DNA of 64,000 nt from Candidatus Fermentithermobacillus carboniphilus (lineage in GTDB: Bacteria > Bacillota > Sulfobacillia > Fermentithermobacillales > Fermentithermobacillaceae), in contig CP062796.1 in assembly GCA_018208355.1 (NCBI GenBank), forward strand, positions 1,582,494 to 1,646,493, given 5' to 3'. Below the pieces are notes generated by a model, which was given only the letters and a program-made list of their open reading frames with translations, ran no database searches and was not told the DNA's origin. The position numbers and the translations under genes were made by a program. Numbering within the stretch: the first letter of the stretch is position 1; the number at the start of each line of letters is the position of its first letter. Of the stretch, positions 38,304-59,362 are shown one piece after another.

Positions 38304-38311
38304 TGTGAAAG

Positions 38312-38353
38312 GGCGGGCTCCCGGGTTTTGTCGCGTTTGCTCGGGGTCCCGCC
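38312..38353 (+). terminator. Terminator-like hairpin between the two GlmL modules
   Basis: GGCGGGCTCCCGGG (38312-38325) pairs with CTCGGGGTCCCGCC (38340-38353) with two G-U pairs and one mismatch. The sequence ATGTATTTT follows. It lies 9 bases after the first module. Confidence 0.6.
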
Positions 38354-38464
38354 ATGTATTTTGCCTGGTTCGCTTGGAGTTTATTGGATCACCAATTTCG
38401 ACTGAAATATTGTAAAATAGTCAAGATACTGTAGGATCCGAGAAGGCGGAGGGAGGTGGATCGG

Positions 38465-38887: not shown

Positions 38888-38971
38888 TGAAGGAATTTTT
38901 AACGCGATGTCGTAATTGGCCTATTATGCGGTTTCATATCCTTTTTCGGCAGTAAGGGAGGGGAAGAGTCT

Positions 38972-40828: not shown

Positions 40829-40844
40829 GGGAGGGAAGGTAAAA

Positions 40845-43936: not shown

Positions 43937-43938
43937 GG

Positions 43939-44430
43939 ATGAGAGAGTTTGAGGTCTTGAGCGAATCGGCGAACGAGACCAGATTCCTCGGAAAACGCGT
44001 GGGTGAAAGACTCCGGGGAGGCGAAATATTTCTCCTGTCCGGTCCCCTAGGGGTTGGGAAAACCACTTTTGTCCAGGGCATAGCAGCGGGGTTAGGGATC
44101 GAGGGAAAAGTGAAAAGCCCGAGTTTTGTGCTGGAAAGGATCTATGAGGGAAGGCTCCGCCTGCGGCACTGTGACTTCTACAGGCTTTCGGAAGGCGAGA
44201 TAAATGAAGCAGGACTCCTGGATGATCCGGATGGCGAGACCGTCACGGTCATAGAGTGGGCGGAACGTGCCGGTACCTACCCTTCTTTCACTGTGAGAGT
44301 AGCCTTTGCGTTTGTCCCGGGGTCTTTGGATAAGAGGCTTATGCGTTTAACCGTTTCGTCGGATGAGTGGGGGGAGATAATTGGGGATATCCTCTCGGGG
44401 AGAAGCGACCCCTCTGGTCCTGGCAATTGA
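43939..44430 (+). CDS. tsaE: tRNA t6A biosynthesis ATPase TsaE
   Basis: P-loop ATPase of the threonylcarbamoyl-adenosine complex that cycles TsaB-TsaD. Walker A GPLGVGKTTF lies at about residues 35-44, with KSPSFVLERIY, HCDFYRL and VTVIEWAER, all family signatures. Length is 163 aa. The start is ATG 43939, right after the previous stop; the open frame reaches 43870 but that part overlaps the glycosylase gene. The 3' end overlaps tsaB by 50 bases. Confidence 0.95.
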   Translation: MREFEVLSESANETRFLGKRVGERLRGGEIFLLSGPLGVGKTTFVQGIAAGLGIEGKVKSPSFVLERIYEGRLRLRHCDFYRLSEGEINEAGLLDDPDGETVTVIEWAERAGTYPSFTVRVAFAFVPGSLDKRLMRLTVSSDEWGEIIGDILSGRSDPSGPGN

Positions 44431-45193
44431 GACCAGTACAGTTCTTCTGGGCGTATCGGTAGTAGCAGGTAACAGGGTTGTCTACGAGACAGCGCTGGAG
44501 AGGCCGAGGGTGCACTCGAAGATGCTTCTGCCGTTGTGCATCGAGGCTCTCGATGCTGTGGGAGTGTCGCGGGAAGACCTTTCTTGTATCGCGGTTTCGG
44601 CCGGTCCTGGCTCTTTCACGGGTCTGCGGATAGGGTGCGCGACCGCTCAGGGGCTGGGATTCTCTCTGGGCATAACAGTCGTTCTGGTACCGACCTTCGA
44701 GGTTTATCTGTACCAGTGCTTGCACCTTGATGCGGTGGCCATAGTACAAGGTAAAGCCAGAGGGCAGACCGTATGCGCTCTATATGTGAGAGAGACTCGA
44801 GGCCCCTCCGGACAGGAAGGGTTTTGGGGCCGCTATGGTTACAGAGAAGCCATAACCATAGGCCCCGACGATTTCTCCCGGTTTTACGTCGAGATCCTGA
44901 AGAGGGTGCCGTCGGCTGAAACAACGTGGGTGGCGGGTGATGCGGCGGCTGAATTCTGCGATGAGGTCCTAAAGATGAGAGAAAGATTTATCAGGGGCGA
45001 AGCGCTTCCGGAGATAGAACGGCTGGTGGAGGTAAGGCCGGTCGACGAGTACTGGCGGCTTCCCCGGCCAGGGATTGTCGGGCTAATTGGATCCAGGATG
45101 TTCCTTGAAGGAAAGGGACAGCCGCCATCTCTAGCGTTGCCCCAGTACTACAGGAAATCTCAGGCTGAAGCGGCGTTTGGGAACAGGACGTGA
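44381..45193 (+). CDS. tsaB: tRNA t6A biosynthesis protein TsaB
   Basis: ASKHA-fold scaffold and dimer partner of TsaD. LAIETSTVLLGVSVV at about 14-28 and SAGPGSFTGLRIGCATAQGL at about 72-91 are hallmark motifs. Length is 270 aa, somewhat longer than the 220-240 aa common in the family because of a longer C-terminal half. The only usable start is TTG 44381, inside tsaE, behind GGGGGGAG. Overlap by 50 bases with tsaE suggests tight coupling. Confidence 0.93.
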   Translation: MGISSRGEATPLVLAIETSTVLLGVSVVAGNRVVYETALERPRVHSKMLLPLCIEALDAVGVSREDLSCIAVSAGPGSFTGLRIGCATAQGLGFSLGITVVLVPTFEVYLYQCLHLDAVAIVQGKARGQTVCALYVRETRGPSGQEGFWGRYGYREAITIGPDDFSRFYVEILKRVPSAETTWVAGDAAAEFCDEVLKMRERFIRGEALPEIERLVEVRPVDEYWRLPRPGIVGLIGSRMFLEGKGQPPSLALPQYYRKSQAEAAFGNRT

Positions 45194-45223
45194 GATATCC
45201 TTCAGGATCGAAGGTGACTTTCA

Positions 45224-45724
45224 GTGAAAAGCCTAGTGAACGTGACAATAGAAAAGATGACCCCGGAGGATCTGGACAGGGTCTTGGAGATAGAACAGCT
45301 GTCCTATCCCACCCCCTGGTCTAGGCGTGCTTTTCTGTCGGAACTCACGGAGAATTCCTACGCGCACTACTTCGTGGCGCGCGTAGGTGGTGAGATCGTC
45401 GGGTATTTTGGGATGTGGATCATACTTGAAGAAGCCCACATAACCAACATAGCGGTCCACCCTAGCTTCAGGAGACAGGGTATCGGAGAATCGATGCTGA
45501 GGTTCGCCTTTGAAAAGGCGAAAGATCTCGGTGCTACCAGGATGACGCTGGAAGTAAGGGTCTCCAATATACCTGCTCAGACCCTTTACAGAAAACTGGG
45601 GTTTGAGGATAGGGGCATCCGGCGAGGTTACTATACCGATACCAATGAGGATGCCATCATAATGTGGAAAGACGACCTTGGCCCAAGGAAACCCAAACAA
45701 GAGCAGGTCAAGTGGATGATGTAG
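45224..45724 (+). CDS. rimI: Ribosomal-protein-alanine N-acetyltransferase (RimI)
   Basis: GNAT-family acetyltransferase of 166 aa, acetylating the N-terminal alanine of ribosomal protein S18 or related targets. The acetyl-CoA-binding signature VHPSFRRQGIGESML is at about 82-96, with TLEVRVSNIPAQTLYRKLGF typical of RimI. GTG 45224 has GAAGGTGA a few bases upstream; ATG 45257 would be too short to include the first strand. The gene is typically grouped with tsaB and tsaD, as here. Its 3' end overlaps the convergent pyrF by 17 bases. Confidence 0.94.
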   Translation: MKSLVNVTIEKMTPEDLDRVLEIEQLSYPTPWSRRAFLSELTENSYAHYFVARVGGEIVGYFGMWIILEEAHITNIAVHPSFRRQGIGESMLRFAFEKAKDLGATRMTLEVRVSNIPAQTLYRKLGFEDRGIRRGYYTDTNEDAIIMWKDDLGPRKPKQEQVKWMM

Positions 45725-46637
45725 GGGAGGCCCCGGTCCCTACTATGGCCTGGATTTCCTTTTTTGCCTTTTGAGCCGCTTCCAACATGGCATCGAATAT
45801 CCTGGACTCTGAAAGTTGCCCGGGTTCCGAGTTTTCGTATGAGAAGATTATGGCCCGGGAGGAAGAAACTAGTGCGCCACGCCCTCCTGGATGGAACGCC
45901 GCTTTCAAGTTTTCAGCCTTGCCACCCTGTGCCCCGTAGCCGGGGAGGAGTATTATGGACTGGGGCAGGAGGCTCCTCAAAATGCTAAGGTGTTCGGGAT
46001 ATGTGGCGCCTACGACCGCACCTACGTTGGAATACCCACAATTTCCTATGGATGAAGAGGCAAAGGCAGCTACGACCCTGGCGACTTTAGCAAAAAGAGG
46101 TTCGCCATCTGCAAGTACGGCATCCTGAAACGCCCCGGAACCCGGATTAGAGGTCTTGACCAGAACGAAAATCCCTGAACCGCTCTTTTTTGCCGCCGCG
46201 ACGAAAGGTTCGAGGCTGTCGGGCCCGAGGTATGGGTTGACTGTCACAGCGTCCGAGAAGAACTCCGAGGAAGGATCGAGGTAAGCCCGGGCGTAAGCCG
46301 AGGCCGTACTCCCGATATCTCCTCGCTTGGTATCCAGTATGATTGGTAGACCCATTTCTCTGGCCATCTTGATGCAGCGTCTAAGGGCTTTCCAGCCGGG
46401 GATCCCGGCACATTCGAAGAAAGCTGCCTGGGGTTTTACGGCGCACGCCGTGCGGGCGGCAACTTCGAGGGCAATATGACAGAAAGCCGAAAGGAGATAT
46501 TCCGGATCATCGCTGTTCAGGGTAATTGCGAATCTCGACGACTTGTCCAGGACTTTTTCGGGGTGAGGGTCGATCCCGATGACCAACTGTGAGTCAAGTT
46601 CTTGCATCCTTTTTTCGATTTTGTCGGAAAAATGCAC
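45708..46637 (-). CDS. pyrF: Orotidine 5'-phosphate decarboxylase, type 2
   Basis: Last step of UMP synthesis. The long (309 aa) type 2 form is recognised from its N-terminal LVIGIDPHPE, the catalytic LDTKRGDIGSTA with the essential lysine and aspartates, VNPYLGPDSLEPF, and PGYGAQGG near the C-terminus. The GTG start at 46637 has AAGGAGCGG 7 bases upstream. It stands alone on the minus strand between rimI and tsaD, splitting what is often a continuous t6A cluster; no other pyr genes are nearby. Confidence 0.95.
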   Translation of the reverse strand: MHFSDKIEKRMQELDSQLVIGIDPHPEKVLDKSSRFAITLNSDDPEYLLSAFCHIALEVAARTACAVKPQAAFFECAGIPGWKALRRCIKMAREMGLPIILDTKRGDIGSTASAYARAYLDPSSEFFSDAVTVNPYLGPDSLEPFVAAAKKSGSGIFVLVKTSNPGSGAFQDAVLADGEPLFAKVARVVAAFASSSIGNCGYSNVGAVVGATYPEHLSILRSLLPQSIILLPGYGAQGGKAENLKAAFHPGGRGALVSSSRAIIFSYENSEPGQLSESRIFDAMLEAAQKAKKEIQAIVGTGASPTSST

Positions 46638-46823
46638 GTTGCAACCGCTCCTTTTTCTTTGAATGTATCACAGGGAAGACCGGGAGTTAAAGGAAACTAT
46701 CTGTGTGGAAGTCAGTCTCAGTCGGCCAATTCGCCAGGGACAAGGGATAGGTTTTCATGAGGAGAACAGTATAATTGCGGGTAGGACCTTTTGGAGTAAT
46801 TTCACTTTGGCGGTGATGGTATT

Positions 46824-47840
46824 TTGCTTTTACTCGGTATCGACACTTCATGCGACGACACTTCTTGTGCCGTGGTGGAAGACGGCAGGAGAGTCCTATC
46901 AAACATAGTCTCCTCCCAGGTAGACCTCCACTCAAAATACGGCGGCGTGGTCCCGGAGATAGCGTCGAGACGGCACCTGGAGCTGATGGTTCCTGTCGTC
47001 GAAGAGGCCTTGAGGACTGCGGATGTTTCCTTGAAGGACATAGACGGCATCGCCGTGACCCAAGGACCCGGGTTGCTGGGTTCCCTACTGGTGGGGGTCT
47101 CTTTCGCCAAGAGTCTCGCTTATGGACGGGGAATTCCACTTGTAAGCGTACATCACCTGGAAGCACATATTTACGCAAACTTCCTGCGTGAAGAAGTTCC
47201 GTCGTTCCCCCTTTTGAACCTGGTGGTTTCAGGGGGGCATTCTGACCTGATATTGATGAAAGCCCACGGAATCTACGAGGTACTCGGGGAAACCAGAGAC
47301 GACGCGGCCGGGGAAGTGTTTGACAAGGTTGCCAGGGAGATGGGCCTGCCGTACCCCGGTGGCCCGTTTCTCGACAAGATAGCAGATAGCGGAGACCCCG
47401 ACAGGTTCTTTTTCCCCAGCCCTAAGATTGAATGTGAAGGGTACAATTACAGCTTTTCAGGCATCAAGACCAGGGCCCTTCTCCAGCTTGAATCCTGCCC
47501 TGACCGAACCCGATGTATACCGCACCTTGCGGCCAGTTTCAGGAAAGCGGTGGTGGAGCAGCTTTTGGGCAGGGTTGAGGAAGTGCTCGATATTGACGGG
47601 GCGAGCGCAAAGGCACTGGGCGTGTCAGGGGGGGTTGCAGCAAACAGCCTCCTGAGGAAGGAAGCGGAGTTGCTTTCCCGAAGACGGGGGATCCCCCTTT
47701 TCATCCCTCCCAGGGACCTGTGCACCGACAACGGCGCGATGGTGGCGGCGGCGGGATTTTACAGGCTGAAAGCGGGAAAGATTGCGGGTCCAGACCTCAA
47801 CGCCTTTTCCGATCTCGAACTTGAATCGTGGGGGCGGTGA
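46824..47840 (+). CDS. tsaD: tRNA N6-threonylcarbamoyladenosine transferase TsaD
   Basis: Transfers the threonylcarbamoyl group to A37 of ANN-decoding tRNAs. N-terminal GIDTSCDDTSCAVV, the metal-binding histidines His111 and His115 in SVHHLEAH, GGHSDL, and the C-terminal DNGAMVAAAG are intact. Length is 338 aa, as usual. Start is TTG 46824. TATAAT at 46770-46775 may be its -10, although the -35 is poor. TsaE and TsaB are encoded just upstream, separated by rimI and pyrF. Confidence 0.97.
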   Translation: MLLLGIDTSCDDTSCAVVEDGRRVLSNIVSSQVDLHSKYGGVVPEIASRRHLELMVPVVEEALRTADVSLKDIDGIAVTQGPGLLGSLLVGVSFAKSLAYGRGIPLVSVHHLEAHIYANFLREEVPSFPLLNLVVSGGHSDLILMKAHGIYEVLGETRDDAAGEVFDKVAREMGLPYPGGPFLDKIADSGDPDRFFFPSPKIECEGYNYSFSGIKTRALLQLESCPDRTRCIPHLAASFRKAVVEQLLGRVEEVLDIDGASAKALGVSGGVAANSLLRKEAELLSRRRGIPLFIPPRDLCTDNGAMVAAAGFYRLKAGKIAGPDLNAFSDLELESWGR

Positions 47841-47849
47841 CCAATTGGG

Positions 47850-49184
47850 ATGATCACTCCTTCTCCATCTATCGAAGCCCTTCTGTACCACGCCCAGAAA
47901 GAGGGGATTCTGCCAATCACCTCCCGGTGTAACATGGGTTGCATATTTTGTTCCAACGCTTACAACCCGCCCGGGTGTGAGATATTCAACATTCCCCCGA
48001 GAAGTGCGGAGGAAATAGAAGATACTATTTTGTGGCTGGGAGCTTCCAGAGGTCCTGTGGTCATCGGCGAGTCCGTTACGAGGATCAACGAAGGTGAACC
48101 TTTGACCCATCCCGAGTTTGCAGAGATTCTGAAACTTGTGAGAAAATACTACCCCCACCGACCCATCAAAGTGACCACCAACTGCTCGCTCCTCGACCGC
48201 GAACTGATTGCCCTTCTTTCTGACCTCGAGGTTGAACTGTTGGTATCCCTCAACACAGTCGGACACCGGGAAAGGGTCATGAGAGACCCCGAGCCTGAAA
48301 GGACCCTCAAGAACGTTTCCGCCCTGGGTGGGAAAGTCAGTTTCGAAGGCAGCATAGTGGCTCTTCCATTCATCACGGGCTGGGAGGATATCAGAGAGAC
48401 CGGGCGCTTCCTCAAAGAGTCGGGGGCAAAACTCATCCGGCTGCTTTCCCCGGGGTTTTCTTCCCGGCATCCTCTGGCGAGTTACCTTACACCTGGAATC
48501 TGGACCGAGATTAGAGAGTTTTCGAAGGAACTCGCCAGGGAACTCAAGCTCCCGATCCTGTCAGAACCGCCCGAGATCAAAGATCTATCAGCCAGGGTAG
48601 AAGAAGTCTTGCCCGGTTCGCCCGCGAGAAGGGCTCACCTCCGCTCAGGCGACGTCATCCTGCGAGTTGCAGGTCTTGAAGTGTTTTCGCGGAAGGAAGC
48701 CTTCGAACTTGCTCGAGACCGGGAAAACCCGAAGATCTCTTACGAGAGGGACGGGGTCCTCTATGATACGACCCTGACAAAAGAGAAGTACGAGTCTCCC
48801 GGGTTCATAATGTACGAAGATCTCGATCCCGAAGAATGGTTTTCCTGGGAACGAAAGTCCGGGATCAGAAGAGGCCGCAACGTCCTGATCCTTACGTCCT
48901 CCCTGGCCAAACCGGTTATCGAGAAAGCCCTCGAGGCAAGAGGCCTTTCGGCGAGGGTCGAAGAGGTGCCCTCACTATTCTTCGGGGGCAACATTCAGGC
49001 GGGCGGGTTGCTTACCGTAAGGGATTTCGTGGAAAGATACAGGGAAGTGACCTCAGACGGATTCCGTCCGGAAGTGGTCACTCTGCCTGCCAGAGCTTTC
49101 GACCCTTGGGGCAGGGATCTGAGGGGAGAGCATTACAAGGCATTTATGGAAGAGACCGGATGTCCAGTAGTCATTTCCGGATGA
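47850..49184 (+). CDS. Radical SAM protein with internal PDZ and DUF512-like C-terminal region
   Basis: A 444 aa protein. The radical SAM cluster motif is SRCNMGCIFC (about 25-34), followed by the SAM-binding GEPLTHPEF. A PDZ-like domain lies at about 245-315 (VEEVLPGSPARRAHLRSGDVIL). The C-terminal part (about 345-444), with VLILTSSLAKPVIEKAL and LPARAFDPWGRDLRGE, resembles the DUF512 part of YphC/EngA-linked radical SAM proteins, in which the PDZ comes first. The changed domain order is unusual. Substrate unknown. It begins 9 bases after tsaD and precedes M42 peptidases. Confidence 0.82.
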   Translation: MITPSPSIEALLYHAQKEGILPITSRCNMGCIFCSNAYNPPGCEIFNIPPRSAEEIEDTILWLGASRGPVVIGESVTRINEGEPLTHPEFAEILKLVRKYYPHRPIKVTTNCSLLDRELIALLSDLEVELLVSLNTVGHRERVMRDPEPERTLKNVSALGGKVSFEGSIVALPFITGWEDIRETGRFLKESGAKLIRLLSPGFSSRHPLASYLTPGIWTEIREFSKELARELKLPILSEPPEIKDLSARVEEVLPGSPARRAHLRSGDVILRVAGLEVFSRKEAFELARDRENPKISYERDGVLYDTTLTKEKYESPGFIMYEDLDPEEWFSWERKSGIRRGRNVLILTSSLAKPVIEKALEARGLSARVEEVPSLFFGGNIQAGGLLTVRDFVERYREVTSDGFRPEVVTLPARAFDPWGRDLRGEHYKAFMEETGCPVVISG

Positions 49185-49282
49185 ACTTCGGAAGGATTGG
49201 GCTGCCTTACCAAAGAATACTCACTTTGAGGAAACTAGTTCCAGTATCACAGCGTTTTCCTTCAGGAGGTGTCAACCAGGGC

Positions 49283-50344
49283 TTGGATGCAAAGGAATTC
49301 CTAAAAAAAGCTTCTATGGCTCACGGAGTAACAGGATACGAGTTTTTGAACGTGGCTGGGCTCGTGAAAGAAGCCATGGCGGGTCTTGTGGATGAGGTCC
49401 GCCAGGACGTCCTGGGCAACGTCATCGGTGTCAGAAGGGGTGAAGGGCCGGAACCCAGACCGAAAGTGATGCTTGCTGGGCACATGGACGAAGTTGGCCT
49501 CATGGTCACCAAGATAGAGGAAGGCGGTTTCTTGAGGTTCACGGGGATGGGTGGTGTTGACCCGCGGATCTTGCCGGGTCACGAGGTAATCGTTTACGGA
49601 AGAAGACCCCTTCCCGGAGTGATCGGCGTGAAGCCTCCCCACCTCACTTCACCGGAAGAAGTCGGGAAGGCCCACAAAATGGAGGATCTCTTCATAGACG
49701 TTGGGATTCCCGAGGAAGAGGTCAAAAACCTGGTGAAAGTGGGTGACGTGGTTACCTATCGCCGGCAGGTTACGGAGCTTTTAGGCGATGTCCTCGCGGG
49801 GAAGTCCTTTGATGATAGGGCGGGGGTTGCTGTAATCCTGGTCTGTCTCGAGGAATTGAAGAAGTACAAGGTCAGCGCCGACGTCTATGCGGTTGCGACT
49901 ACCCAGGAAGAAGTTGGCTTAAGAGGTGCACTGACCTCTTCCTTTGACATTGACCCCGACGTAGGCATCGCGATCGACGTGTGTCACGCCGATATGCCGG
50001 GGGTGCCGGAATCGCGGACTTCCACCATGGGCAAAGGTCCCGCCCTGGCGCGGGGAGGGAACATCCATCCCAGAGTGTACGAAGGCCTTGAAAAAGCCGC
50101 GAAGGAGCTGGGCATCGAATTCCAGACAGAAGTGGCTCCTGCCGCTACAGGAACCGATGCCTGGGCCATCCAGGTGACGCGGGCAGGGGTGGCCACGGGA
50201 CTTATCTCGATCCCGCTGAGATACATGCATACCTCCGTGGAAACGTTATCTTTCGGTGATGTAGACAAGGCCGGAAGGCTTCTGGCAAGGTTCATTGCGT
50301 CGGTCGATGCCTCGTTTGTGAAGGAGTTGAGGACATGGATCTGA
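49283..50344 (+). CDS. M42 family metallo-aminopeptidase, copy 1
   Basis: Co-catalytic dinuclear zinc aminopeptidase of the M42 (tetrahedral TET/FrvX) family, 353 aa from TTG 49283, chosen for the AGGAGGT at 49264-49270 and the family's normal length; ATG 49316 is an alternative. Metal and catalytic motifs are GHMDEVGLMV, KSFDDRAGVAV, TTQEEVGLRGA, DVCHAD and MHTSVET. Members form dodecameric particles degrading peptides from the proteasome or other proteases. First of three adjacent M42 genes, overlapping the second by 10 bases. Confidence 0.92.
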   Translation: MDAKEFLKKASMAHGVTGYEFLNVAGLVKEAMAGLVDEVRQDVLGNVIGVRRGEGPEPRPKVMLAGHMDEVGLMVTKIEEGGFLRFTGMGGVDPRILPGHEVIVYGRRPLPGVIGVKPPHLTSPEEVGKAHKMEDLFIDVGIPEEEVKNLVKVGDVVTYRRQVTELLGDVLAGKSFDDRAGVAVILVCLEELKKYKVSADVYAVATTQEEVGLRGALTSSFDIDPDVGIAIDVCHADMPGVPESRTSTMGKGPALARGGNIHPRVYEGLEKAAKELGIEFQTEVAPAATGTDAWAIQVTRAGVATGLISIPLRYMHTSVETLSFGDVDKAGRLLARFIASVDASFVKELRTWI

Positions 50345-51354
50345 GAGAACTGACGCTCCTCTCAGGGGTCTCAGGGAATGAAGCGGATATCCGGAGGGGG
50401 ATAACAAGAGAGCTTGAATCCCTGGGAGTACCTTACGAACTCGACGTTCTGGGGAACATCATAGCCCGAAAAGGCTCTAAAGGGCCCAAAGTCATGGTGG
50501 ATGCCCACATGGACGAAGTAGGGCTAATCGTCACTTTCATTGAGAAAAACGGCTTTGTGCGTTTTTCGGCTGTCGGAGGAATAGATCCGAGAGTGCTGGT
50601 TTCAAAACGGGTGCTCATCGGAAAGGATCGAGTGCCGGGCGTCATCGGGGCGAAAGCCATCCACCTTCAAGAGCCTAAAGAGCGGGAACAAGTGATCCCG
50701 AAAGACCAGCTGTTCATAGATATAGGGGCCAAATCCAGGGATGAAGCGGAAAAGAAGGTCAAGCCGGGGGACTACGCTATCTTCGATACCGAGTACGAGG
50801 AACTGTGGCCGGGGATAATCAAGTCGAAAGCTTTAGACGACAGGGTGGGTTGCGCTCTTCTCCTGGAAACTCTGAAAGAGCCGTGGGAAAACATACAGCT
50901 TTACGCGGTTTTTGCCGTCCAGGAAGAAGTCGGCACCAGGGGGGCCAGGGTGGCGTCGTATGCCATAGCCCCTGATATGGGAATAGCCCTGGAGGGGACG
51001 GTGTGCGCCGATATACCGGGGACCGATAAAGAGTTTCAGGCAACGCGCCTCGGAAAAGGAGCGGTCCTCAGCATCATGGACAGGGGTTCAATACCCTCCC
51101 GGACGATGTTGAAAGAACTTTTGCGCCTGGCTCAAGAAAACAACATCCCGGTACAGTTCCGGGAGACCACTTCCGGCGGCAACGACGCTGCTGCCATACA
51201 CCTCGCGAGGGAAGGATGTCCGGTTGCATCCATCTCTGTACCTTGCAGGTATATCCACACGCCCTGTTCCGTCATGTCCATGGCTGACTTTGAAGCCGCC
51301 AAGAAGCTCCTGGTCCTATTCTTGAAGAGCGTAGAGGGAGGTTTCAGACCGTGA
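50335..51354 (+). CDS. M42 family metallo-aminopeptidase, copy 2
   Basis: A 339 aa paralogue of the adjacent genes. It keeps DAHMDEVGLIV, KALDDRVGCALL, FAVQEEVGTRGARV, LEGTVCADIPG and IHTPCSV. Differences between the copies around the substrate pocket suggest separate specificities rather than redundancy. ATG 50335 overlaps the preceding gene. Co-translation of several M42 subunits would permit hetero-oligomers, known in some archaeal TET systems; here that is inference. Confidence 0.92.
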   Translation: MDLRELTLLSGVSGNEADIRRGITRELESLGVPYELDVLGNIIARKGSKGPKVMVDAHMDEVGLIVTFIEKNGFVRFSAVGGIDPRVLVSKRVLIGKDRVPGVIGAKAIHLQEPKEREQVIPKDQLFIDIGAKSRDEAEKKVKPGDYAIFDTEYEELWPGIIKSKALDDRVGCALLLETLKEPWENIQLYAVFAVQEEVGTRGARVASYAIAPDMGIALEGTVCADIPGTDKEFQATRLGKGAVLSIMDRGSIPSRTMLKELLRLAQENNIPVQFRETTSGGNDAAAIHLAREGCPVASISVPCRYIHTPCSVMSMADFEAAKKLLVLFLKSVEGGFRP

Positions 51355-52343
51355 AAGATCTCATAAAAAAGCTGACAGAGACCTTCGGGCCCGCAGGGGC
51401 GGAAGGACCGATTAGAGAAGTTATCAGGAAAGAGGTAGAGCCTTACGTCGACGAGATCCGGGTTGACGCTTTGGGGAACCTCATATGCCATAAGAAAGGG
51501 CAGGGCGGCAAAAAGCTCCTCCTTGATGCGCACATGGATGAGATCGGGCTGATGGTGACCCACATAGATGACAACGGTTTTTTGAGATTTGGCACAATCG
51601 GAGGAGTCAATCCCTACATATCTCTGGGGCAGCGCGTTTACTTTGAGAACGGGACCTTCGGGGTCATAGGCTCTGAGAAGATCGAAGATCCAAAAGATGT
51701 CAAGGCCGAAAAACTCTTCATCGATATCGGCGCAAAAGACAAAAAGTCCGCTGAAGAAAAAGTGAAAATTGGAGATAGCGCGGCCTTTTTCCAACCTATG
51801 CTCGATCTCGGCTCGAGGGTAGTCGCGAAGGCCATGGATGACCGTATAGGTTGTGCGGTGATAATCGAAACCCTGAGGCGTCTTGGGCCGGTGAGAAACG
51901 AAATTTACGCCGTCTTTGCGGTTCAGGAAGAGGTGGGATTGAGAGGCGCCAGAGTTGCAGCCTTCGGCATCGAGCCCGACGTCGGTGTGGCCTTCGATGT
52001 AACGCGGACCGGAGACACGCCCAAGGGGATCACGATGGAAGTGGCTCTCGGCAAGGGAGCGGCTATAAAGGTCAAAGACTCGAGCCTAATATGTCATCCG
52101 GGCCTCAAAGAGTACATGGTGAAACTGGCGACGCAGGTAGAGATACCCTACCAGCTGGAAGTCCTGGAGGCAGGAGGCACCGACTCCGGCGCCATCCAGT
52201 TGACGAAAGCGGGGATCCCGGCGGGAGTCATCTCGATCCCCTGCCGGTATATCCACAGCCCCAGCGAAATGGTAGACCTGGGTGATGTTGAGGCCTGCAT
52301 CAGGCTGTGCAAGGCTCTGTGCGAGAGCCCGCTTGATTTCTAA
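51351..52343 (+). CDS. M42 family metallo-aminopeptidase, copy 3
   Basis: A 330 aa M42 enzyme with DAHMDEIGLMV, KAMDDRIGCAV, FAVQEEVGLRGARV, FDVTRTGDTPKG and IHSPSEMVD. The GTG start overlaps the previous stop by 4 bases. The three copies are clearly paralogous along their whole length and none shows missing metal ligands. A large hairpin follows at 52378-52434, before tldD. Confidence 0.92.
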   Translation: MKDLIKKLTETFGPAGAEGPIREVIRKEVEPYVDEIRVDALGNLICHKKGQGGKKLLLDAHMDEIGLMVTHIDDNGFLRFGTIGGVNPYISLGQRVYFENGTFGVIGSEKIEDPKDVKAEKLFIDIGAKDKKSAEEKVKIGDSAAFFQPMLDLGSRVVAKAMDDRIGCAVIIETLRRLGPVRNEIYAVFAVQEEVGLRGARVAAFGIEPDVGVAFDVTRTGDTPKGITMEVALGKGAAIKVKDSSLICHPGLKEYMVKLATQVEIPYQLEVLEAGGTDSGAIQLTKAGIPAGVISIPCRYIHSPSEMVDLGDVEACIRLCKALCESPLDF

Positions 52344-52377
52344 GCCGGACCCTGAGCGCACGGTAAAAGTCAGTCCA

Positions 52378-52434
52378 CCATCCACCATACGCGCGGGAGG
52401 CCAGCCGGGGCCACGCCACCAGTATGGTGGATGG
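52378..52434 (+). terminator. Large perfect hairpin between M42 and tldD genes, possible attenuator
   Basis: CCATCCACCATAC (52378-52390) is perfectly complementary to GTATGGTGGATGG (52422-52434) with a 31-base GC-rich loop. ATTTGTTT follows, a weak U-tract, and tldD starts 28 bases later. It could terminate part of the transcription or stabilise the M42 mRNA 3' end. Confidence 0.55.
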
Positions 52435-52462
52435 ATTTGTTTAACGAGGAGGAGACCCTGCT

Positions 52463-53893
52463 TTGCTCGTAGAGCTCGAGAGAGTATTGGGAATGGCTCA
52501 AAAACTGGGGGCGGAATACGCAGATGCACGGTATGTCACGATCACCAGGGAACCGGTTACAGTGACGAGTGGAAGTGGCCCGGAAGTTTCTGTATCCAAG
52601 AGCACGGGTTTGGGCCTGCGCGTCCTGGTGGATGGGGCTTGGGGGTTCGCGGCCACTCCCTATATCGACCAGCGTAGCCTGGGAAAAGTTTGCGAAGAGG
52701 CCGTGAAGATAGCCATGGCGTCGGCTCGATACAAGACGGGAGATGGAGTGACTCTATCGCCTCTTCCGCCGTTGAGGGCCCGCTGGCAAACGCCGGTCAA
52801 GGTTGATCCTTTTCAAGTAAAACCAGAGGAGAAAATCGCTTATCTAAAAGATGCCGTGGATGCTGCCAGCAGGATGCCCGAGATTTCCAGGGCGTCGGCT
52901 TCAATGATGACTTACAGAGAAGAAAAGGAGTTCATGTCCACCGATGGCCGCCAGATCCAGCAGACGCTGGTCCACACAGGAGCGTCTATCTCAGTTTCGG
53001 CTGTAGGCGAAGGCGACGTTCAAACCCGTTCTTTCGCCGATTATGCGGGGTGTGGGTACGAATTCGTGGAAAGCCTAGACTTGAAAAACCTCGGGGAAGA
53101 TCTTGCTTCCGAGGCGCGAGACCTCCTGAGAGCCCCCGTGTGTCCTGAAGGTGTCAGGGATCTGGTGGTGGGAGGGTCCATGATGGCGCTCCAGATCCAC
53201 GAATCCTGCGGGCACCCGGTGGAATTAGACAGGGTCCTGGGGCAGGAGGCCACCTTTGCCGGGACTTCTTTTTTGACTCCGGAGAAAAAAGGCAGTTTCC
53301 GGTACGGTTCGCCCGAGGTGAATATCGTGGCCGACGCCACCGTACCGGGAGGACTTGGGACTTTTGGCTTCGACGACGAGGGTGTGGAGGCACAGAGGAC
53401 GAAACTTGTGGTGAAAGGGGTTTTCCAGGATTACCTCACCTCCAGGGAGCTTGCTCCCATGTTCGGCCAGGAGTCCAACGGAACCATGAGGGCCGCCGGG
53501 TGGGAGAACATCCCGCTCATCAGGATGACCAATATAAATTTAGAACCCGGCGACTGGACGCTGGATGAGATAATAAAACATACAAAAGACGGGATTTTCG
53601 TTGACTCCCCAAAAAGCTGGAGCCTTGACGACAAACGGCTGAATTTCCATTTTGGACAGGAAATAGCATATGAAATCAAAGACGGTTCTCTGGGCAGGAT
53701 GCTTAAGAACCCCGGGTACACCGGGACGACCCCGGAGTTCTGGGGTTCGTGCGACGCTGTAGCGGGGAAGAAGGAATGGCGGATGTGGGGAACTCCCGGC
53801 TGCGCCAAAGGCGAACCTGTCCAGGTGATCCACGTGGGCCATGGAGCATCTCCCTGCCGGTTTCGCGGCGTAAAGGTAGGTGTGGGGCGTTGA
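52463..53893 (+). CDS. tldD: Metalloprotease TldD
   Basis: Zinc-dependent TldD subunit of the TldD/TldE protease, a processor of small peptides and of unfolded chains, including some antibiotic precursors. The catalytic HExxxH motif is complete: His246-Glu247-Ser-Cys-Gly-His251. DFLTSRE-like and GWENIPLIRMTN segments are typical of the family. Length is 476 aa. The TTG start at 52463 has GAGGAGGAG about 8 bases upstream. Its stop overlaps the tldE start. Confidence 0.93.
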   Translation: MLVELERVLGMAQKLGAEYADARYVTITREPVTVTSGSGPEVSVSKSTGLGLRVLVDGAWGFAATPYIDQRSLGKVCEEAVKIAMASARYKTGDGVTLSPLPPLRARWQTPVKVDPFQVKPEEKIAYLKDAVDAASRMPEISRASASMMTYREEKEFMSTDGRQIQQTLVHTGASISVSAVGEGDVQTRSFADYAGCGYEFVESLDLKNLGEDLASEARDLLRAPVCPEGVRDLVVGGSMMALQIHESCGHPVELDRVLGQEATFAGTSFLTPEKKGSFRYGSPEVNIVADATVPGGLGTFGFDDEGVEAQRTKLVVKGVFQDYLTSRELAPMFGQESNGTMRAAGWENIPLIRMTNINLEPGDWTLDEIIKHTKDGIFVDSPKSWSLDDKRLNFHFGQEIAYEIKDGSLGRMLKNPGYTGTTPEFWGSCDAVAGKKEWRMWGTPGCAKGEPVQVIHVGHGASPCRFRGVKVGVGR

Positions 53894-55230
53894 TAGGCAA
53901 GGAAGACGCCTTCAGGATTATGGAGAAAACCCTTTCATACGCCAAAGGATTTGACATTGAAACTAACCTCATTTCCGAAGATTTGAGCCTCACTCGCTTC
54001 TACGAAAACTACATACACCAGAACCTGAGGCGACAGGACCACATCCTCTCGGTGAGGACTGTAAAAGGTGGAAAAGTGGGAATCGCACAGGTCAACCTTC
54101 TGGACGATGGTTCTTTACGATGGGTGGTCAATGCGGCCCGGGAGGCAATGGAAATCGCTGAGGAAGACCCGGAATTTCCAGGCCTTCCGAGGCCGGAGCC
54201 GTATTCGGACATCAACACCTACGTATCTTCTACGGCGAATTTGAAGCCCAGGGACAGGGCAGATGGCTGTGGCGTGATCATCTCGCGGAGCAGCGAAAAG
54301 GGGCTTGTGGGATGTGGCTCCTTTAGCACTTCTATCCGTGAAGTCGCCGTGGCCTCGAGCCTGGGAGTGCGGGCGTACAACGCATCTACCGAGGCCTTCT
54401 TCAGGACCATTGTAGGGTCAGGGCAGAATACGGGGTACGCTGACAGGTTGGTCAGGGACTCAAGAGACATAGATTTTGAAGATGTCGCCCGCGAAGCCAT
54501 CGAGAGGGCCACCCTGTTTCCCGAAGCCAGAGAGATTCCTCCGGGACGTTACGATACCATCTTCCTGGAATATGCCGTGGCTGACCTCCTGAGATTTCTC
54601 GGCTACATCGCTTTTGGAGCTGAAGCCAAACAGCGTAGTATCAGTTTCATGTCGAGGAGCATGGGAGAAAAGGTTATGGGAGATAGTATCACCATTTGGG
54701 ATGACGGTCTTGATACCAGGGGGTTCGCGATTCCCTTTGACCGGGAAGGAGTGCCCAAGAAGAAAGTGGTGTTCGTAGAGAACGGGGTCGCAAAAGGAGT
54801 AATTTACGATGCCCGCACTGCGGCCAAAGAGGGATTGAAGTCTACCGGACATGCAAATCCGCGGTATGGAGGTTCGCCGCTGCCGCAGAACATGTTCGTG
54901 GCCCCGGGGAACGCTACTCTTGAGGAAATGATCAGGACGACGAAAAAGGGGCTTTTGGTGACGAGGTTCCACTATACCCACTGTCTCGAGCCCCTCCGCT
55001 TGGTTGCAACAGGGACTACGAGGGATGGAACTTTCTTAATAGAAGACGGAGAGATCTCCGCAAGAGTAAAGGATTTGAGATTCACCGAATCGGTACTGGA
55101 GGCCTTTTCCAGGGTAGACGCGATATCCGGGACAACGCGGGTGACGAGAGATTGGTGGGGTACGTTCACTTCGGTCATCCCGGCCCTCAGGATAAGAGAT
55201 TTCAACTTTACGGGGTCAGCTGCGTTTTAG
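53890..55230 (+). CDS. tldE: TldE/PmbA partner subunit
   Basis: Second subunit of the TldD/TldE heterodimer; it lacks the HExxxH motif and shapes the peptide channel. Conserved pieces include GYADRLVRDSRDIDFEDVA, the C-terminal VTRFHYTHCLEPL motif and the final LRIRDFNFTGS. The start is TTG 53890, which overlaps the tldD stop by 4 bases (TTGA); the frame opens earlier at 53749 but lies inside tldD. Length is 446 aa, as expected. Named PmbA in Escherichia coli for microcin B17 maturation. Confidence 0.92.
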   Translation: MIGKEDAFRIMEKTLSYAKGFDIETNLISEDLSLTRFYENYIHQNLRRQDHILSVRTVKGGKVGIAQVNLLDDGSLRWVVNAAREAMEIAEEDPEFPGLPRPEPYSDINTYVSSTANLKPRDRADGCGVIISRSSEKGLVGCGSFSTSIREVAVASSLGVRAYNASTEAFFRTIVGSGQNTGYADRLVRDSRDIDFEDVAREAIERATLFPEAREIPPGRYDTIFLEYAVADLLRFLGYIAFGAEAKQRSISFMSRSMGEKVMGDSITIWDDGLDTRGFAIPFDREGVPKKKVVFVENGVAKGVIYDARTAAKEGLKSTGHANPRYGGSPLPQNMFVAPGNATLEEMIRTTKKGLLVTRFHYTHCLEPLRLVATGTTRDGTFLIEDGEISARVKDLRFTESVLEAFSRVDAISGTTRVTRDWWGTFTSVIPALRIRDFNFTGSAAF

Positions 55231-55269
55231 GCCCTTGCGCCTTGGAAACCCGGGCTTGCGCATATAATT

Positions 55270-55293
55270 CACCCCGGGTTGGGGCCCGGGGTG
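55270..55293. terminator. GC-rich hairpin between convergent tldE and amidase genes
   Basis: CACCCCGGG (55270-55278) and CCCGGGGTG (55285-55293) form a perfect 9-pair stem with a TTGGGG loop, followed on the plus strand by TTCCTTG. It lies 40 bases after tldE and 43 before the end of the convergent amidase gene, so it may act in both directions. Confidence 0.6.
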
Positions 55294-55335
55294 TTCCTTG
55301 CCGTTTAGGGTATTTGTGCATAACTGCCAGGTGAC

Positions 55336-57579
55336 TTACTGGGTTGTCCGTGTTGCCGGAGAAAAGTAGGTCAGGATCGCCCGGTAGATACCATAGGCGG
55401 CTTTATCCAGCATGGCGGGATTTTTCAGCATGCCCTCCTCTCTCGGGTTTGACAGGTACATGACTTCTACCAGCACAGAGGGACAGATCGACTCTCTCGC
55501 CACGAAAAAGTTGGAATCCCTGACGCCCCGGTCGAGGGTGCCAAGACTTGCCGATAATTCCTTCTGGATAAGCGAAGCGAGCCGGTATGACTCGGAAGCG
55601 TTGAGGGTCCTTTCGCAGATGTAGGAAGCCGTCCCGGAGATGCTCCGGTCAGAATGATAGTCATTGTGAATGGAGATGAAAGCGTCCGCTTTGGCAGACC
55701 ATGCTGCCCTCTTTGCCAGATCCCCCGCATATTCGTCCGGGGCGGGATTCCAATCCGGCGGGGGAGTCGCGTCCTCGTCCAGCCCGTTTCTGGTCAGGTA
55801 AACGGTGGCTCCCGCGTTCCTGAGAAGCTCTCTGACTCGAATCGCGATCTCCCAGTTAGCTACCTTCTCTTGCAAGCCGGTGGGCCCGATGGCGCCCGGG
55901 TCGTTGCCGCCGTGCCCCGGGTCGATTACAATGACTTTTCCAGCGAGGCCGGGCAACGGGAAATACGCTTCCAAGGAATTGGCGTTCTTCTTGAGGAGGT
56001 ACGGAGTATCCACAAGGGTGTCAAGAGACAAGGTTAGCCCGTCGTCCCGGGACTTGACACTCACTGACTTGATAAGCTTCCCCTGGAAGGTCGGCAAGTG
56101 CCCTTCATACGAGGCTCCTGGCAAAAAGAACGATATCGAGCTGCCATTTCTCTTCACATCAGGCCAAGCGTACCCGAGGGTGTTGATGGTGAGGACGTCC
56201 CTGTCTTCATGCGACTGACCGACGATGGAAGTCACCGTCGGTGAAAACTCGAGGACAACCCTGCCCGGGGCCTGTTCTCTCACTACGTAAGACGGTTTTT
56301 CTTTGAATCTGACCGTTACATCGCTGGTGGCAACCTTCACGCTTTCGAACTCAAAGCAGTTGATGTCAAGGCGCCCCTCAGTGTTAAAAAATATGGATGT
56401 GCTGACTTTGAGTGAACCACCGGCCTCGTCTTCAATGATCCGAGTTGACTGGAATGGGCCCGTAACCGTCAAGATCCTCGACCTCTGGCTCGCGTCAATA
56501 GATACTGAAAAGGAAGGAGAGCTATCCTTGATGCCGCTGGTCAGCCAAGATGCAACCCAGCCTACTACCCCTTTTGGGGAAACCGCCTGGATCCACCTGT
56601 CCTGACTCTGGATCACTCTTAAGACATCGCCTCTGTTAACCATTGTCAGGACGGGATAGTTTGTCCCCGGTCCGCTCCTGAAATTGACGTCGGTGGCAGT
56701 GACGGTTACGGTGTTAAACTTCCCTATGGACCACGATGATTCTGAAACACCGAACGAAAGCGCCGGATCCTTGACGCTGGAGATACGTACGTCTGGACCA
56801 TAGACCCACCCTTTGACCCCGCCAGAAGCCTCTACCGCGACGAATGCCCCTTTGGAAGTTATGTACCTTGCGGATTGGCCAGGTTCCAGCCGGCCCAGCA
56901 CCGTGGATCCTTGTACCGGTGTCTGCCATATCTTCACGCTCGCGCCTGAGGGAAATACCAGCATGTCCCCGGATGGTTGGTCTGAATTTTCCAGGACCGG
57001 CAGTTCAAGCTGGAGCAGCGATTCGTGTATCCACGCTGTCTTTCCGCCGCCTATCGACACTTGGACCCATTGTCCTCGCTTGGCCTGAGCCGGAAACACC
57101 GCATCCTTTTGAGTGACGAAGAGAACGGGAAATTCAGTGCCGGGTCCCTTCCTCACGTTGACGTCGGTTTTGGTTATCCTCGCACTTATCGCTCTGGATC
57201 CCAGGTCCACGTCGATAAGAAAAGACGCTATCCATGCTTCTTTCCCGCCGTGTCTTATCCTCACCCAATCTCCCTGGTAGGAAATGACGTCGACCCACGT
57301 GCCCTGGACTACCTGTCCCACCACTCGGGAACTCATAGAAGGTCCTTGCCGGAGATTGCACACGTCGCCTACGACGACGGCCTTAAACCCGGATAGCTCT
57401 TTCGGGACGGTCCTCTGACTCTCGGCCAAGACATCTTTTGAGTTTCCGAGGAAAAGGTAACCGACCAAAAGCACTACCAAGGAAAGAACAGCCGTGGCCT
57501 TCAAAGCCGTCTTTCTTAGGTACTCTTGCCTGAAGAAGGGTTTTCTAGATGTTGGCCGCGTCTGTGACACCGTGCTCAC
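55336..57579 (-). CDS. N-acetylmuramoyl-L-alanine amidase with multiple SH3 domains
   Basis: Envelope-located, 747 aa. A membrane anchor or signal segment lies at about 28-48. Four bacterial SH3 domains follow (roughly 65-125, 133-190, 205-275 and 290-350), each with the VNxRxGP or WVxS pattern. A beta-rich AMIN-like segment (about 365-555) comes next, and then the catalytic zinc amidase_3 domain (about 560-740), with IDPGHGGNDPGA, NxE/H ligand regions, SIHND and LVEVMYLSNPRE. It cleaves the amide between muramic acid and the peptide stem. The GTG start at 57579 is preceded by ACCGGGG. No close operon partner. Confidence 0.92.
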   Translation of the reverse strand: MSTVSQTRPTSRKPFFRQEYLRKTALKATAVLSLVVLLVGYLFLGNSKDVLAESQRTVPKELSGFKAVVVGDVCNLRQGPSMSSRVVGQVVQGTWVDVISYQGDWVRIRHGGKEAWIASFLIDVDLGSRAISARITKTDVNVRKGPGTEFPVLFVTQKDAVFPAQAKRGQWVQVSIGGGKTAWIHESLLQLELPVLENSDQPSGDMLVFPSGASVKIWQTPVQGSTVLGRLEPGQSARYITSKGAFVAVEASGGVKGWVYGPDVRISSVKDPALSFGVSESSWSIGKFNTVTVTATDVNFRSGPGTNYPVLTMVNRGDVLRVIQSQDRWIQAVSPKGVVGWVASWLTSGIKDSSPSFSVSIDASQRSRILTVTGPFQSTRIIEDEAGGSLKVSTSIFFNTEGRLDINCFEFESVKVATSDVTVRFKEKPSYVVREQAPGRVVLEFSPTVTSIVGQSHEDRDVLTINTLGYAWPDVKRNGSSISFFLPGASYEGHLPTFQGKLIKSVSVKSRDDGLTLSLDTLVDTPYLLKKNANSLEAYFPLPGLAGKVIVIDPGHGGNDPGAIGPTGLQEKVANWEIAIRVRELLRNAGATVYLTRNGLDEDATPPPDWNPAPDEYAGDLAKRAAWSAKADAFISIHNDYHSDRSISGTASYICERTLNASESYRLASLIQKELSASLGTLDRGVRDSNFFVARESICPSVLVEVMYLSNPREEGMLKNPAMLDKAAYGIYRAILTYFSPATRTTQ

Positions 57580-57733
57580 CCCGGTTGTATGACGTTATGT
57601 GGAATGATTTCAAACTATGTGACGCATTTCCTCCACGATATGTTCCGGTTCGACATCTTTCTCCCTAATACAAAATCGAAACCCGCCAGCAGGAGCTGAC
57701 GGGATACGACCTAGGGGGAACGCAGAATGGCCC

Positions 57734-58138
57734 TCATTGAAGCGAGGTTGCATTGTCCTCTTCCAGGGCTTTTTTCGTCTTCCGCAGATAATCCTGGATG
57801 GCCGCGTGAAGCGCATCTGCAGCCAGGTTCGAACAGTGAAGTTTTTGGGGAGGAAGTCCCCCCAAAGCCTCCGCTACGGCCTTATTCGAGACTTTCATCG
57901 CCTCTTCCAGAGTAAGCCCTTTGACCATCTCGGTGACCATCGAACTTGTGGCTATAGCAGCGCCGCAGCCGAACGTCTTGAACTTGATGTCCTCGATTCT
58001 CCCATCCTTGATGCGGAGGGTTATCCTCATGACATCCCCGCAGACGGGGTTTCCCACCTGTCCTTCGCCGTCAGGGTTCTCAATCTCTCCGACGTTTCTG
58101 GGGTGAAAGAAATGGTCCATGACTTTATCGTTGTACAT
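57734..58138 (-). CDS. Fe-S cluster assembly scaffold (IscU/NifU N-terminal type)
   Basis: Scaffold on which sulfur from cysteine desulfurase and iron form clusters. The three ligand cysteines are present in GNPVCGDVM, TFGCGAAIA and LHCSNLAADA. At 134 aa it is a NifU-N/IscU-type protein with a short C-terminal extension. It follows the desulfurase gene by 21 bases on the minus strand, giving an rrf2-iscS-iscU operon. The label IscU or NifU depends on the lineage's nomenclature. Confidence 0.94.
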   Translation of the reverse strand: MYNDKVMDHFFHPRNVGEIENPDGEGQVGNPVCGDVMRITLRIKDGRIEDIKFKTFGCGAAIATSSMVTEMVKGLTLEEAMKVSNKAVAEALGGLPPQKLHCSNLAADALHAAIQDYLRKTKKALEEDNATSLQ

Positions 58139-58159
58139 AGCGATCCTCGCCTTCTTAAA

Positions 58160-59362
58160 CTATGACTTTGACTTTTGTCCCCTGCCGAAAACCGACATCT
58201 CTCTCAACCTCTCCACGATAGGCGGGAGAACCTCGAGGACGTAATCTATGTCCGCTTCGGTGTTGGATTTTCCCAGCGTCATCCGCAAGGAACCGTGAGC
58301 GACCTCGTGGGGTACGCCCATGGCAAGGAGCACGTGAGATGGCTCCAGGGAACCCGAGGTGCATGCGGAACCCGACGACGCCCCCACCCCAAGGAGGTCG
58401 AGGTTCAGGAGCATTGACTCTCCTTCCACATACTTGATGCTGACGTTGACGTTATGGGGTAAGCGCTCCGTGGGGTGACCGTTCAGGATCGAGTCAGGGA
58501 TCTTATCGAGGATCCCGCGGATCAACCTATCTCTCAAAGCGGAAAGTCTTTTGGACTCCTCGGGGAGTTCCTTTTCGGCGAGACGACACGCCTCCCCGAA
58601 GCCAACTATCCCGGGCACGTTCTCGGTGCCTGCCCGCATTCCCCTTTCGTGGGCTCCTCCGGTTGCCTGCGGGACCAGTCTCGTACCTTTCCTCACGTAA
58701 AGGGCACCTACGCCTTTGGGTCCATATATCTTATGGCTTGATACGGTTAGGAGATCCACGTTCATGGCATTTACGTCTATGGGGACTTTCCCGGCGCTCT
58801 GGACGGCATCGGAGTGGAAGATAATCCCGTGTTCTTTCGCTAACTTGCCTATCTCTCCGATGGGTTCTATGGTGCCTACCTCGTTTTGACCGTGCATTAT
58901 GGAGATCAGGATTGTATCTTTGGTTATGGCCCTTTTAACCTCTTCGGGGTCGATCATCCCGTACCTGTCGCACGGGAGGTATGTTACCCGGAATCCTTCC
59001 TTCTCGAGAGATTCGCAGGTGTGGAGGACGGCGTGGTGTTCTATCGCACTGGTGATGATGTGGTTCCCTCTAGATCTGTAGGCCCAGGCTACGCCCCTCA
59101 AGGCAAGATTGTCGGATTCAGTGCCCCCCGAAGTGAAGATTATCTCGCGCGGATCCGCTTTGATGAGCGAGGCGACCTTCTCGCGGGCTTCCTCCACGGC
59201 CATTCGAGCTTCGCGCCCCCACCTGTGCACGCTGGAGGCATTACCGAACTTGTCGCCGAAATAGGGCAGCATTGCCGCCAGAACCTCGGGCCGGACCGGC
59301 GTCGTTGCCGAGTGGTCCAGGTAAATGTGACGTTCCGGCGTCTTTCGAGTTTCGGTACTCAT
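58160..59362 (-). CDS. Cysteine desulfurase (NifS/IscS)
   Basis: PLP enzyme releasing sulfur from cysteine for Fe-S clusters and thiolation. [15 protein letters not shown] at the N-terminus, the PLP-lysine region [16 protein letters not shown], and the catalytic cysteine loop [17 protein letters not shown] are intact. Length is 400 aa. ATG 59362 overlaps the regulator's stop by 4 bases. The HSATTP and long active-site loop place it in the NifS/IscS group I. Confidence 0.95.

Follow-up and report, generated by a model that had tools for sequence, protein, structure and literature searches.

Three probable modules at one Bacillota locus: a tsaD-linked radical SAM-PDZ protein, an M42 aminopeptidase trio and TldD/TldE

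Genes of the locus

A stretch of 64,000 nucleotides from the genome of Candidatus Fermentithermobacillus carboniphilus (2.32 Mb, a single contig), referred to here as the window, was analysed. Between positions 47850 and 55230 it carries six consecutive genes on the plus strand, encoding a radical S-adenosylmethionine (SAM) protein with a PDZ domain, three M42 aminopeptidases, and a TldD/TldE pair. This layout had been predicted from the window alone and is borne out by the open reading frames (ORFs) and the Pfam domains. The same prediction saw in these genes one peptide-processing cluster. Comparison with other genomes points rather to three neighbouring, separable modules, these being the radical SAM gene with tsaD, the M42 trio, and TldD/TldE, and not to one pathway; this reading is given a probability of about 0.72. 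The genes and domains are as follows, with start codons chosen from the reading frame, the ribosome-binding sequence, and relatives.

47850-49184, plus strand: radical SAM-PDZ-DUF512 protein, 444 aa (Pfam, alignment A1, AlphaFold2 model, profile matches to the PDB, fold match)
about aa 1-240 of that protein: radical SAM domain
48582-48809, plus strand: PDZ domain, about aa 245-320, between the radical SAM and cobalamin-type domains
48825-49181, plus strand: predicted DUF512-type cobalamin-binding domain, about aa 326-444
49283-50344, plus strand: M42a aminopeptidase, 353 aa; TTG start with AGGAGG upstream; Pfam Peptidase_M42
50335-51354, plus strand: M42b aminopeptidase, 339 aa; Pfam Peptidase_M42
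51351-52343, plus strand: M42c aminopeptidase, 330 aa; GTG start; Pfam Peptidase_M42
52463-53893, plus strand: TldD-like metallopeptidase; TTG start; HESCGH at aa 246; PmbA_TldD domain
53890-55230, plus strand: TldE/PmbA-like partner; TTG start; without HExxxH; PmbA_TldD domain

Neighbouring genes overlap by 10 nt (M42a and M42b), 4 nt (M42b and M42c), and 4 nt (TldD and TldE). The Peptidase_M42 E-values are 1.1e-89, 6.8e-98, and 1.1e-92 for M42a, M42b, and M42c. Judged by the radical SAM gene, the closest named relatives are metagenome-assembled genomes labelled Bacillota and Candidatus Fermentithermobacillaceae, at 63-64% identity. Family, order, class, and phylum below are those of the source organism.

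Distribution of the radical SAM gene

All 17 genomes of the order carry the radical SAM gene, as do, at 1e-10, 37 of 154 genomes of the class, 34 of these at 1e-50 or better. In a sample of 398 Bacillota genomes it was found in 92 at 1e-20, in a single place per genome except for G227, where one gene is split over two contigs. Its neighbourhood was read at 76 loci, 36 from the class search and 40 from the phylum sample outside the class (33 families). At 69 of the 76 loci tsaD lies upstream on the same strand, within 300 bp in 37 of these and within 2 kb in 66, and the upstream context is often tsaE-tsaB-rimI-tsaD. Six loci were counted as being without tsaD, three of which (L087-L089) are weak matches to the radical SAM gene itself (5e-20 to 6e-11). 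The remaining locus, L146, stands outside the 69; tsaD is present there, but the ORF-picking script displaced the radical SAM ORF with a longer antisense one. The script may also place false ORFs between tsaD and the radical SAM gene. With a stricter tblastn search, same-strand tsaD is found at 37 of the 40 phylum loci, the exceptions being L124, L137, and L144.

In the window, the genes upstream are the following, under names taken here from the sequences themselves rather than from a family search.

44381-45193, plus strand: presumed tsaB
45224-45724, plus strand: presumed rimI
45708-46637, minus strand: presumed pyrF
46824-47840, plus strand: presumed tsaD

The radical SAM gene starts 9 nt past the end of tsaD, so the run of genes truly begins further upstream.

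Downstream of the radical SAM gene the commonest family is M42, at 23 loci, all of them inside the class. Outside the class, none of the 40 loci has an M42 gene beside it at 1e-10 (37 of them offer at least 3 kb of downstream sequence, L131, L137, and L138 less), and none has TldD or TldE downstream. L145, L149, and L156 have weak matches to TldD or TldE on their upstream side, on the other strand. Seven class loci, from families f17 and f47, are followed after a few genes by a different TldD/TldE pair, which is 24-30% identical and encoded on the opposite strand.

In the 398-genome sample, 23 genomes have both the radical SAM gene and M42c, where 30.5 would be expected by chance (odds ratio 0.60, Fisher p 0.06, kinship uncorrected). 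In the 20 co-occurring genomes that lie outside the class, the two are on different contigs in 16 and more than 300 kb apart in four (G299, G325, G449, and G463). In favour of a link between the modules, two loci of family f13 (L161 and L162) have tsaD followed by the M42 trio and no radical SAM gene. The original prediction of one cluster led by the radical SAM enzyme is not favoured by the upstream tsaD, the absence of adjacent M42 genes outside the class, or the co-occurrence count in the 398 genomes. Whether each gene stands in unrelated contexts in most relatives had been proposed as a check; this is largely so for the cluster as a whole, and it is not so for the M42 trio. On gene order, the adjacency of the radical SAM gene and the trio within the class is read as an old neighbourhood rather than as one pathway.

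The radical SAM-PDZ-DUF512 protein

Pfam identifies Radical_SAM (1.5e-15), PDZ_6 (1.3e-6), and DUF512 (6.7e-5) in the window protein. Alignment A1 has 40 rows, the window protein and 39 relatives. Of these relatives, 20 were taken from 34 class rows; the other 19 represent phylum loci (40 in all) and are match ranges instead of full genes. All 40 rows match all three domains at E 0.01, with a best DUF512 value of 5.7e-13. Searched against PDB sequences, the A1 profile finds 9cg2 (pfDUF512, 2.3e-24) first and then 9cg1 (csDUF512, 4.3e-19). PDZ, radical SAM, and cobalamin parts all have matches in 9cg1, in permuted order; those of the lone radical SAM and PDZ pieces are weak.

The AlphaFold2 model (pLDDT 94.6, pTM 0.91) points the same way. 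Fold comparison (VIA) gave Z scores of 24.2 for pfDUF512, 22.9 for Mmp10, and 19.4 for csDUF512, over 298, 314, and 305 residues; the 298 residues matched to 9cg2 span aa 16-444 of the predicted structure, with a root-mean-square deviation of 2.7. The next matches, NifB and others, have Z scores of 18.0 or less over about 193-249 residues, mainly in the radical SAM part, and Foldseek also ranked the pfDUF512, Mmp10, and csDUF512 group first.

Seven residues are invariant in all rows of A1: C27, C31, C34, E81, G82, G318, and L387. The three cysteines form the CX3CX2C cluster motif of the radical SAM domain, and E81 and G82 are the EG of an EGEP motif. Gly318 is near the position of the csDUF512 carboxylate loop, and Leu387 aligns by HMMER with the lower-axial Leu366 of csDUF512 (residue number from PMC11659888). 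DUF512 was identified in 2024 as a cobalamin-binding domain of radical SAM enzymes (PMC11659888; review PMC13331322). From sequence and model together, the window protein probably belongs with the class-2 cobalamin-dependent radical SAM enzymes Mmp10, csDUF512, and pfDUF512.

Like the window protein, csDUF512 (9cg1), pfDUF512 (9cg2), and Mmp10 (7qbs) have a radical SAM core with CX3CX2C and a C-terminal Rossmann domain of the cobalamin type, and the two DUF512 proteins share with the window family an FFG..I..AGL motif as well as the lower-axial Leu. The PDZ domain sets the families apart. In csDUF512 it is N-terminal, pfDUF512 has none, and the order radical SAM-PDZ-cobalamin of the window protein occurs in neither solved DUF512 protein. 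The csDUF512-type PDZ subgroup combines the N-terminal PDZ with DDD after the cluster loop, whereas in the window family the conserved columns of A1 show EGEP and lack DDD. The link to tsaD is a further difference from the class-2 DUF512 and Mmp10 systems compared.

The same genome encodes a separate, canonical PDZ-radical SAM-DUF512 protein (149.9 bits), to which the window protein is 33% identical over 99 aa in the cobalamin-type domain (BLAST, 5e-10). Because this canonical copy exists, the window protein should be seen as a second, distinct family, and an identity as the ordinary DUF512 orthologue was ruled out. A MoaA-like identity (NCBIfam, 7.2e-8, 31.8 bits against a cut-off of 284) was dropped in favour of the DUF512/Mmp10 match. 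The tsaD-linked radical SAM-PDZ-cobalamin family has no name in the Pfam and NCBIfam scans, and a keyword search of the literature, with most subscription papers outside its reach, found nothing on this family or on a mixed bacterial M42 trio. The canonical gene (L029, 107-2793) adjoins a GTPase gene that is presumably der-like, and both DUF512-type genes are therefore beside translation-related genes. Five B12-binding domains of another family pass the Pfam cut-off in the genome.

Potential ligands of the PDZ domain were sought among the upstream gene products. In the order, RimI has a variable tail that ends in K/R/Q-W-M-hydrophobic, in the window and in all 15 relatives read; these include L063 and L065, in which no neighbouring pyrF was found. 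In the window the end of rimI overlaps the 3' end of the antisense pyrF by 17 nt. From its sequence, this C-terminus is a possible PDZ ligand within the order. It cannot be the general one, because the ending is not common to the RimI of the other loci read. The tails of TsaD, TsaB, and TsaE were rejected as ligands, having no common C-terminal motif by eye.

The M42 trio

At 1e-86 or better, an M42c orthologue is present in 57 of the 154 class genomes, and at 1e-85 in 132 of the 398 genomes of the phylum sample. M42a (1e-80) accompanies it in 55 of the 57, not in G059 and G060. Eleven class genomes have M42a at 1e-80 without M42c at 1e-86; in at least seven of these (G020, G126, G127, G129, G131, G132, and G148) another M42 match lies within about 1.1 kb on the same contig.

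The surroundings of the trio were read at 63 loci, of which 23 adjoin the radical SAM gene or lie within about 4 kb of it, 20 are elsewhere in the class, and 20 are in other classes. These were picked by strong radical SAM or M42c matches, so the count describes the companions of these genes and not the frequency of lone M42 genes. The 20 elsewhere in the class were chosen as not already read beside the radical SAM gene, and show surroundings rather than how often trio and radical SAM gene are separated. All three M42 genes are present, in the order a-b-c, in 61 of the 63 loci; the other two, L059 and L160, are truncated by the ends of their contigs. In L159 the contig starts within M42a, and an apparent lack of M42b in L067-L069 proved to be an artefact of ORF picking.

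The end-to-end overlap of the three genes, remarked on in the original prediction, is a conserved feature. The 10-nt overlap of M42a and M42b is kept in 22 of 24 loci, the window included, and the 4-nt overlap of M42b and M42c in 19 of 23. In a 91-row M42 tree, b and c each form one group (support 100/99 and 100/100), while group a, with L005 (a very long row) at its base, requires two changes. The M42 trio is an old three-gene unit of paralogues from old duplications, in the fixed order a-b-c. A second M42a-like gene, 66% identical to that of the window, is found away from the trio in one genome (G012:C5:59534-60586).

The metal ligands were likewise correctly described as kept. Seven active-site positions were checked in the three window proteins, and the one substitution is Glu for Asp at a ligand of M42b. 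Catalytic and metal residues are retained in 42 of 42 M42a and 43 of 43 M42b sequences, 42 of the latter having Glu for Asp at that ligand. The 43 M42c sequences include three single exceptions: Ser for the catalytic Glu, Leu for the last His, and Glu for Asp.

The three groups differ in their profile scores against solved structures, given here in bits for a, b, and c.

1vho: 289, 217, 222
2fvg: 254, 362, 288
3isx: 223, 320, 392
2cf4 (PhTET1): 221, 263, 213
4x8i (lysyl aminopeptidase): 312, 245, 262

The first three correspond one-to-one with a, b, and c, and the best PDB match of M42c is TmPep1050 (3isx, 4p6y). They make up an M42 set of Thermotoga maritima, the source assumed here for 1vho and 2fvg; the gene numbers, presumably TM1048, TM1049, and TM1050, would give the same order. 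Of the three proteins, TmPep1050 alone was found characterised in the literature (PMC3511314). The archaeal matches divide similarly. M42a leans to 4x8i and to 2pe3 (2pe3/2wzn being, it is assumed, PhTET3), M42b to PhTET1 (2cf4), and M42c, narrowly, to PhTET2 (1y0r). PhTET1, PhTET2, and PhTET3 are M42 paralogues of Pyrococcus horikoshii; the window genes differ in forming one overlapping three-gene unit. Since the profiles lean to different archaeal enzymes, complementary specificities within one particle are suggested.

TldD/TldE

As in Escherichia coli, HExxxH is present in TldD (here HESCGH) and absent from TldE, and the two genes are coupled. The window TldD is of a distant subfamily, scoring 80.7 bits against NCBIfam PRK10735, where the cut-off is 513, and no gene for a modified peptide was found in the window gaps. 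Two further TldD-like matches in the genome have 25-27% identity. Of 64 trio cases, the window included, 11 have TldD/TldE behind the trio. Ten of these are among the 14 genomes of the family, made up of the window genome, eight directly read loci, and G008, where the pair was placed by position on another contig. The eleventh is G145, from another family, and in G004-G007 the pair is not behind the trio. With 11 of 64, ten of them in this family, TldD/TldE is a lineage-restricted neighbour.

The gap between M42c and tldD (52344-52462) is 119 nt in the window, 12-25 nt in eight of nine relatives, and 101 nt in L062. It contains the following feature.

52378-52434, plus strand: 13-bp inverted repeat with a 31-nt loop, followed by ATTTGTTT

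There is weak evidence that this repeat is terminator-like or attenuator-like (z -1.82; 8 of 200 shuffles equally stable). A repeat element was ruled out, the hairpin being single-copy in the genome, and Rfam has nothing at the gathering score within 43000-59000. In L062-L066 (genera g3 and g5), a putative extra ORF of 266-322 aa is present on the TldE strand between TldE and an amidase-like gene.

Interpretation

Under the three-module reading, the radical SAM enzyme (47850-49184) would make methylcobalamin from SAM, and a 5'-deoxyadenosyl radical would take a hydrogen atom from an unactivated carbon, which would then be methylated. The PDZ groove would hold the C-terminus of a partner or substrate protein from the translation, N6-threonylcarbamoyladenosine (t6A), and RimI neighbourhood. 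The best reading of the chemistry, from residues and model, is thus a predicted C-methylation of a PDZ-presented target, by SAM-fed methylcobalamin and the 5'-deoxyadenosyl radical.

In the second module (49283-52343), the three M42 proteins would be co-translated, and dimers of each would build one hollow tetrahedral dodecamer (TET). Judging from PhTET specificities as presumed here, M42a would take basic, M42b acidic, and M42c neutral or hydrophobic N-termini, and the particle would finish the degradation of short peptides. Given the age of the three-gene unit and the conservation of its overlaps and active sites, a mixed TET-like particle can reasonably be proposed, and a TET of M42a, M42b, and M42c is plausible on sequence grounds. 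In vitro, mixed PhTET2-PhTET3 dodecamers have been formed (PMC4220976). In the third module (52463-55230), TldD/TldE would act as a heterodimeric metalloprotease, most likely with a general role in hydrolysing short or odd peptides.

Several points weigh against this reading or parts of it. In the class, the radical SAM gene is beside the trio or within about 4 kb of it in 24 of the 57 genomes with M42c (all 17 of the order, and G018, G021, G026, G027, G057, G144, and G145), a frequency that may reflect a functional link there; of the remaining 13 genomes beyond these and the trio loci read elsewhere, 12 have no radical SAM match at 1e-10 and G060 has one on another contig. The association with tsaD may be a relic of old synteny and not a sign of joint function, the distance exceeds 300 bp in 32 of the 69 loci, and L137, one of the 69, rests on a fragment that the stricter tblastn did not report. 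In the window protein, DUF512 (PF04459) covers positions 97-160 of the 202-position profile and scores 22.7 bits, below the cut-off of 25; binding of cobalamin and transfer of a methyl group are predictions here. As for the trio, the mixed assembly is proposed from gene order, and the specificity assignment rests on profile bits such as those for PhTET2 (1y0r), at 325, 356, and 371 for a, b, and c a narrow lead for c. M42 homododecamers are known (PMC4220976, PMC3511314), and TmPep1050 by itself eluted as what was probably a dimer (PMC3511314).

The homododecamers also favour the view that the three M42s are separate homo-oligomeric aminopeptidases, kept together for balanced expression. With the active site complete in nearly every sequence of each group, each enzyme could work alone. 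The fixed order and conserved overlaps argue for matched amounts, though not for contact. This is a serious possibility, albeit not the favoured one.

The wider proposal that can be built on the three modules is doubtful when taken as a whole. It would see a Bacillota-wide B12-dependent radical SAM family whose internal PDZ domain binds the C-terminus of a translation-related protein, for example a tailed RimI or a protein of the TsaD complex, and which C-methylates that protein or its tRNA, adding a cobalamin step to the t6A/RimI module, beside a TET peptidase of old origin whose three subunits have complementary specificities. A role beside TsaD in a further methylation or other radical change of t6A in tRNA, with the tRNA and not a protein as the target, is also unlikely for the radical SAM enzyme. 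The frequent tsaD linkage, often within tsaE-tsaB-rimI-tsaD, is consistent with this, but a PDZ domain suggests a protein C-terminus as the ligand, and the characterised relative Mmp10 modifies a protein (PMC11659888).

A pathway of the kind that makes ribosomally synthesised and post-translationally modified peptides, with a small peptide altered by the radical SAM enzyme and trimmed by TldD/TldE and the M42 enzymes, is very improbable and was rejected as the main explanation: all six co-directional genes encode peptide-active or peptide-modifying types, a modified peptide is among the substrates of E. coli TldD/TldE (PMC5810440), and the radical SAM gene and trio are neighbours in the 24 class genomes, but the radical SAM protein has no SPASM match in Pfam at 0.001, neither M42 nor TldD/TldE follows its gene in the 40 loci outside the class, co-occurrence with M42c is not above chance, and in 21 short gaps between the radical SAM gene and M42a, as in the window gaps, no ORF of at least 12 aa in the forward frames is common beyond close relatives, distant precursors being unsearched. 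The lack of a visible precursor peptide in the gaps had been noted from the window and holds in these relatives.

The chief interest of the locus is a widespread, PDZ-bearing radical SAM family of the B12 type that is tied to t6A/RimI translation genes. It would represent a second PDZ arrangement with a wide distribution, and because it has a strong genomic partner, tsaD, the question of its substrate becomes testable. The M42 trio is the second clear unit, and lets the existence of mixed TET particles in bacteria be tested just as directly.

Other features

Elsewhere in the window, a gene pair is present in two tandem copies at 35078-41966. By eye, one member is a MutL-like ATPase (632 and 618 aa), and its partner is 451 and 373 aa.

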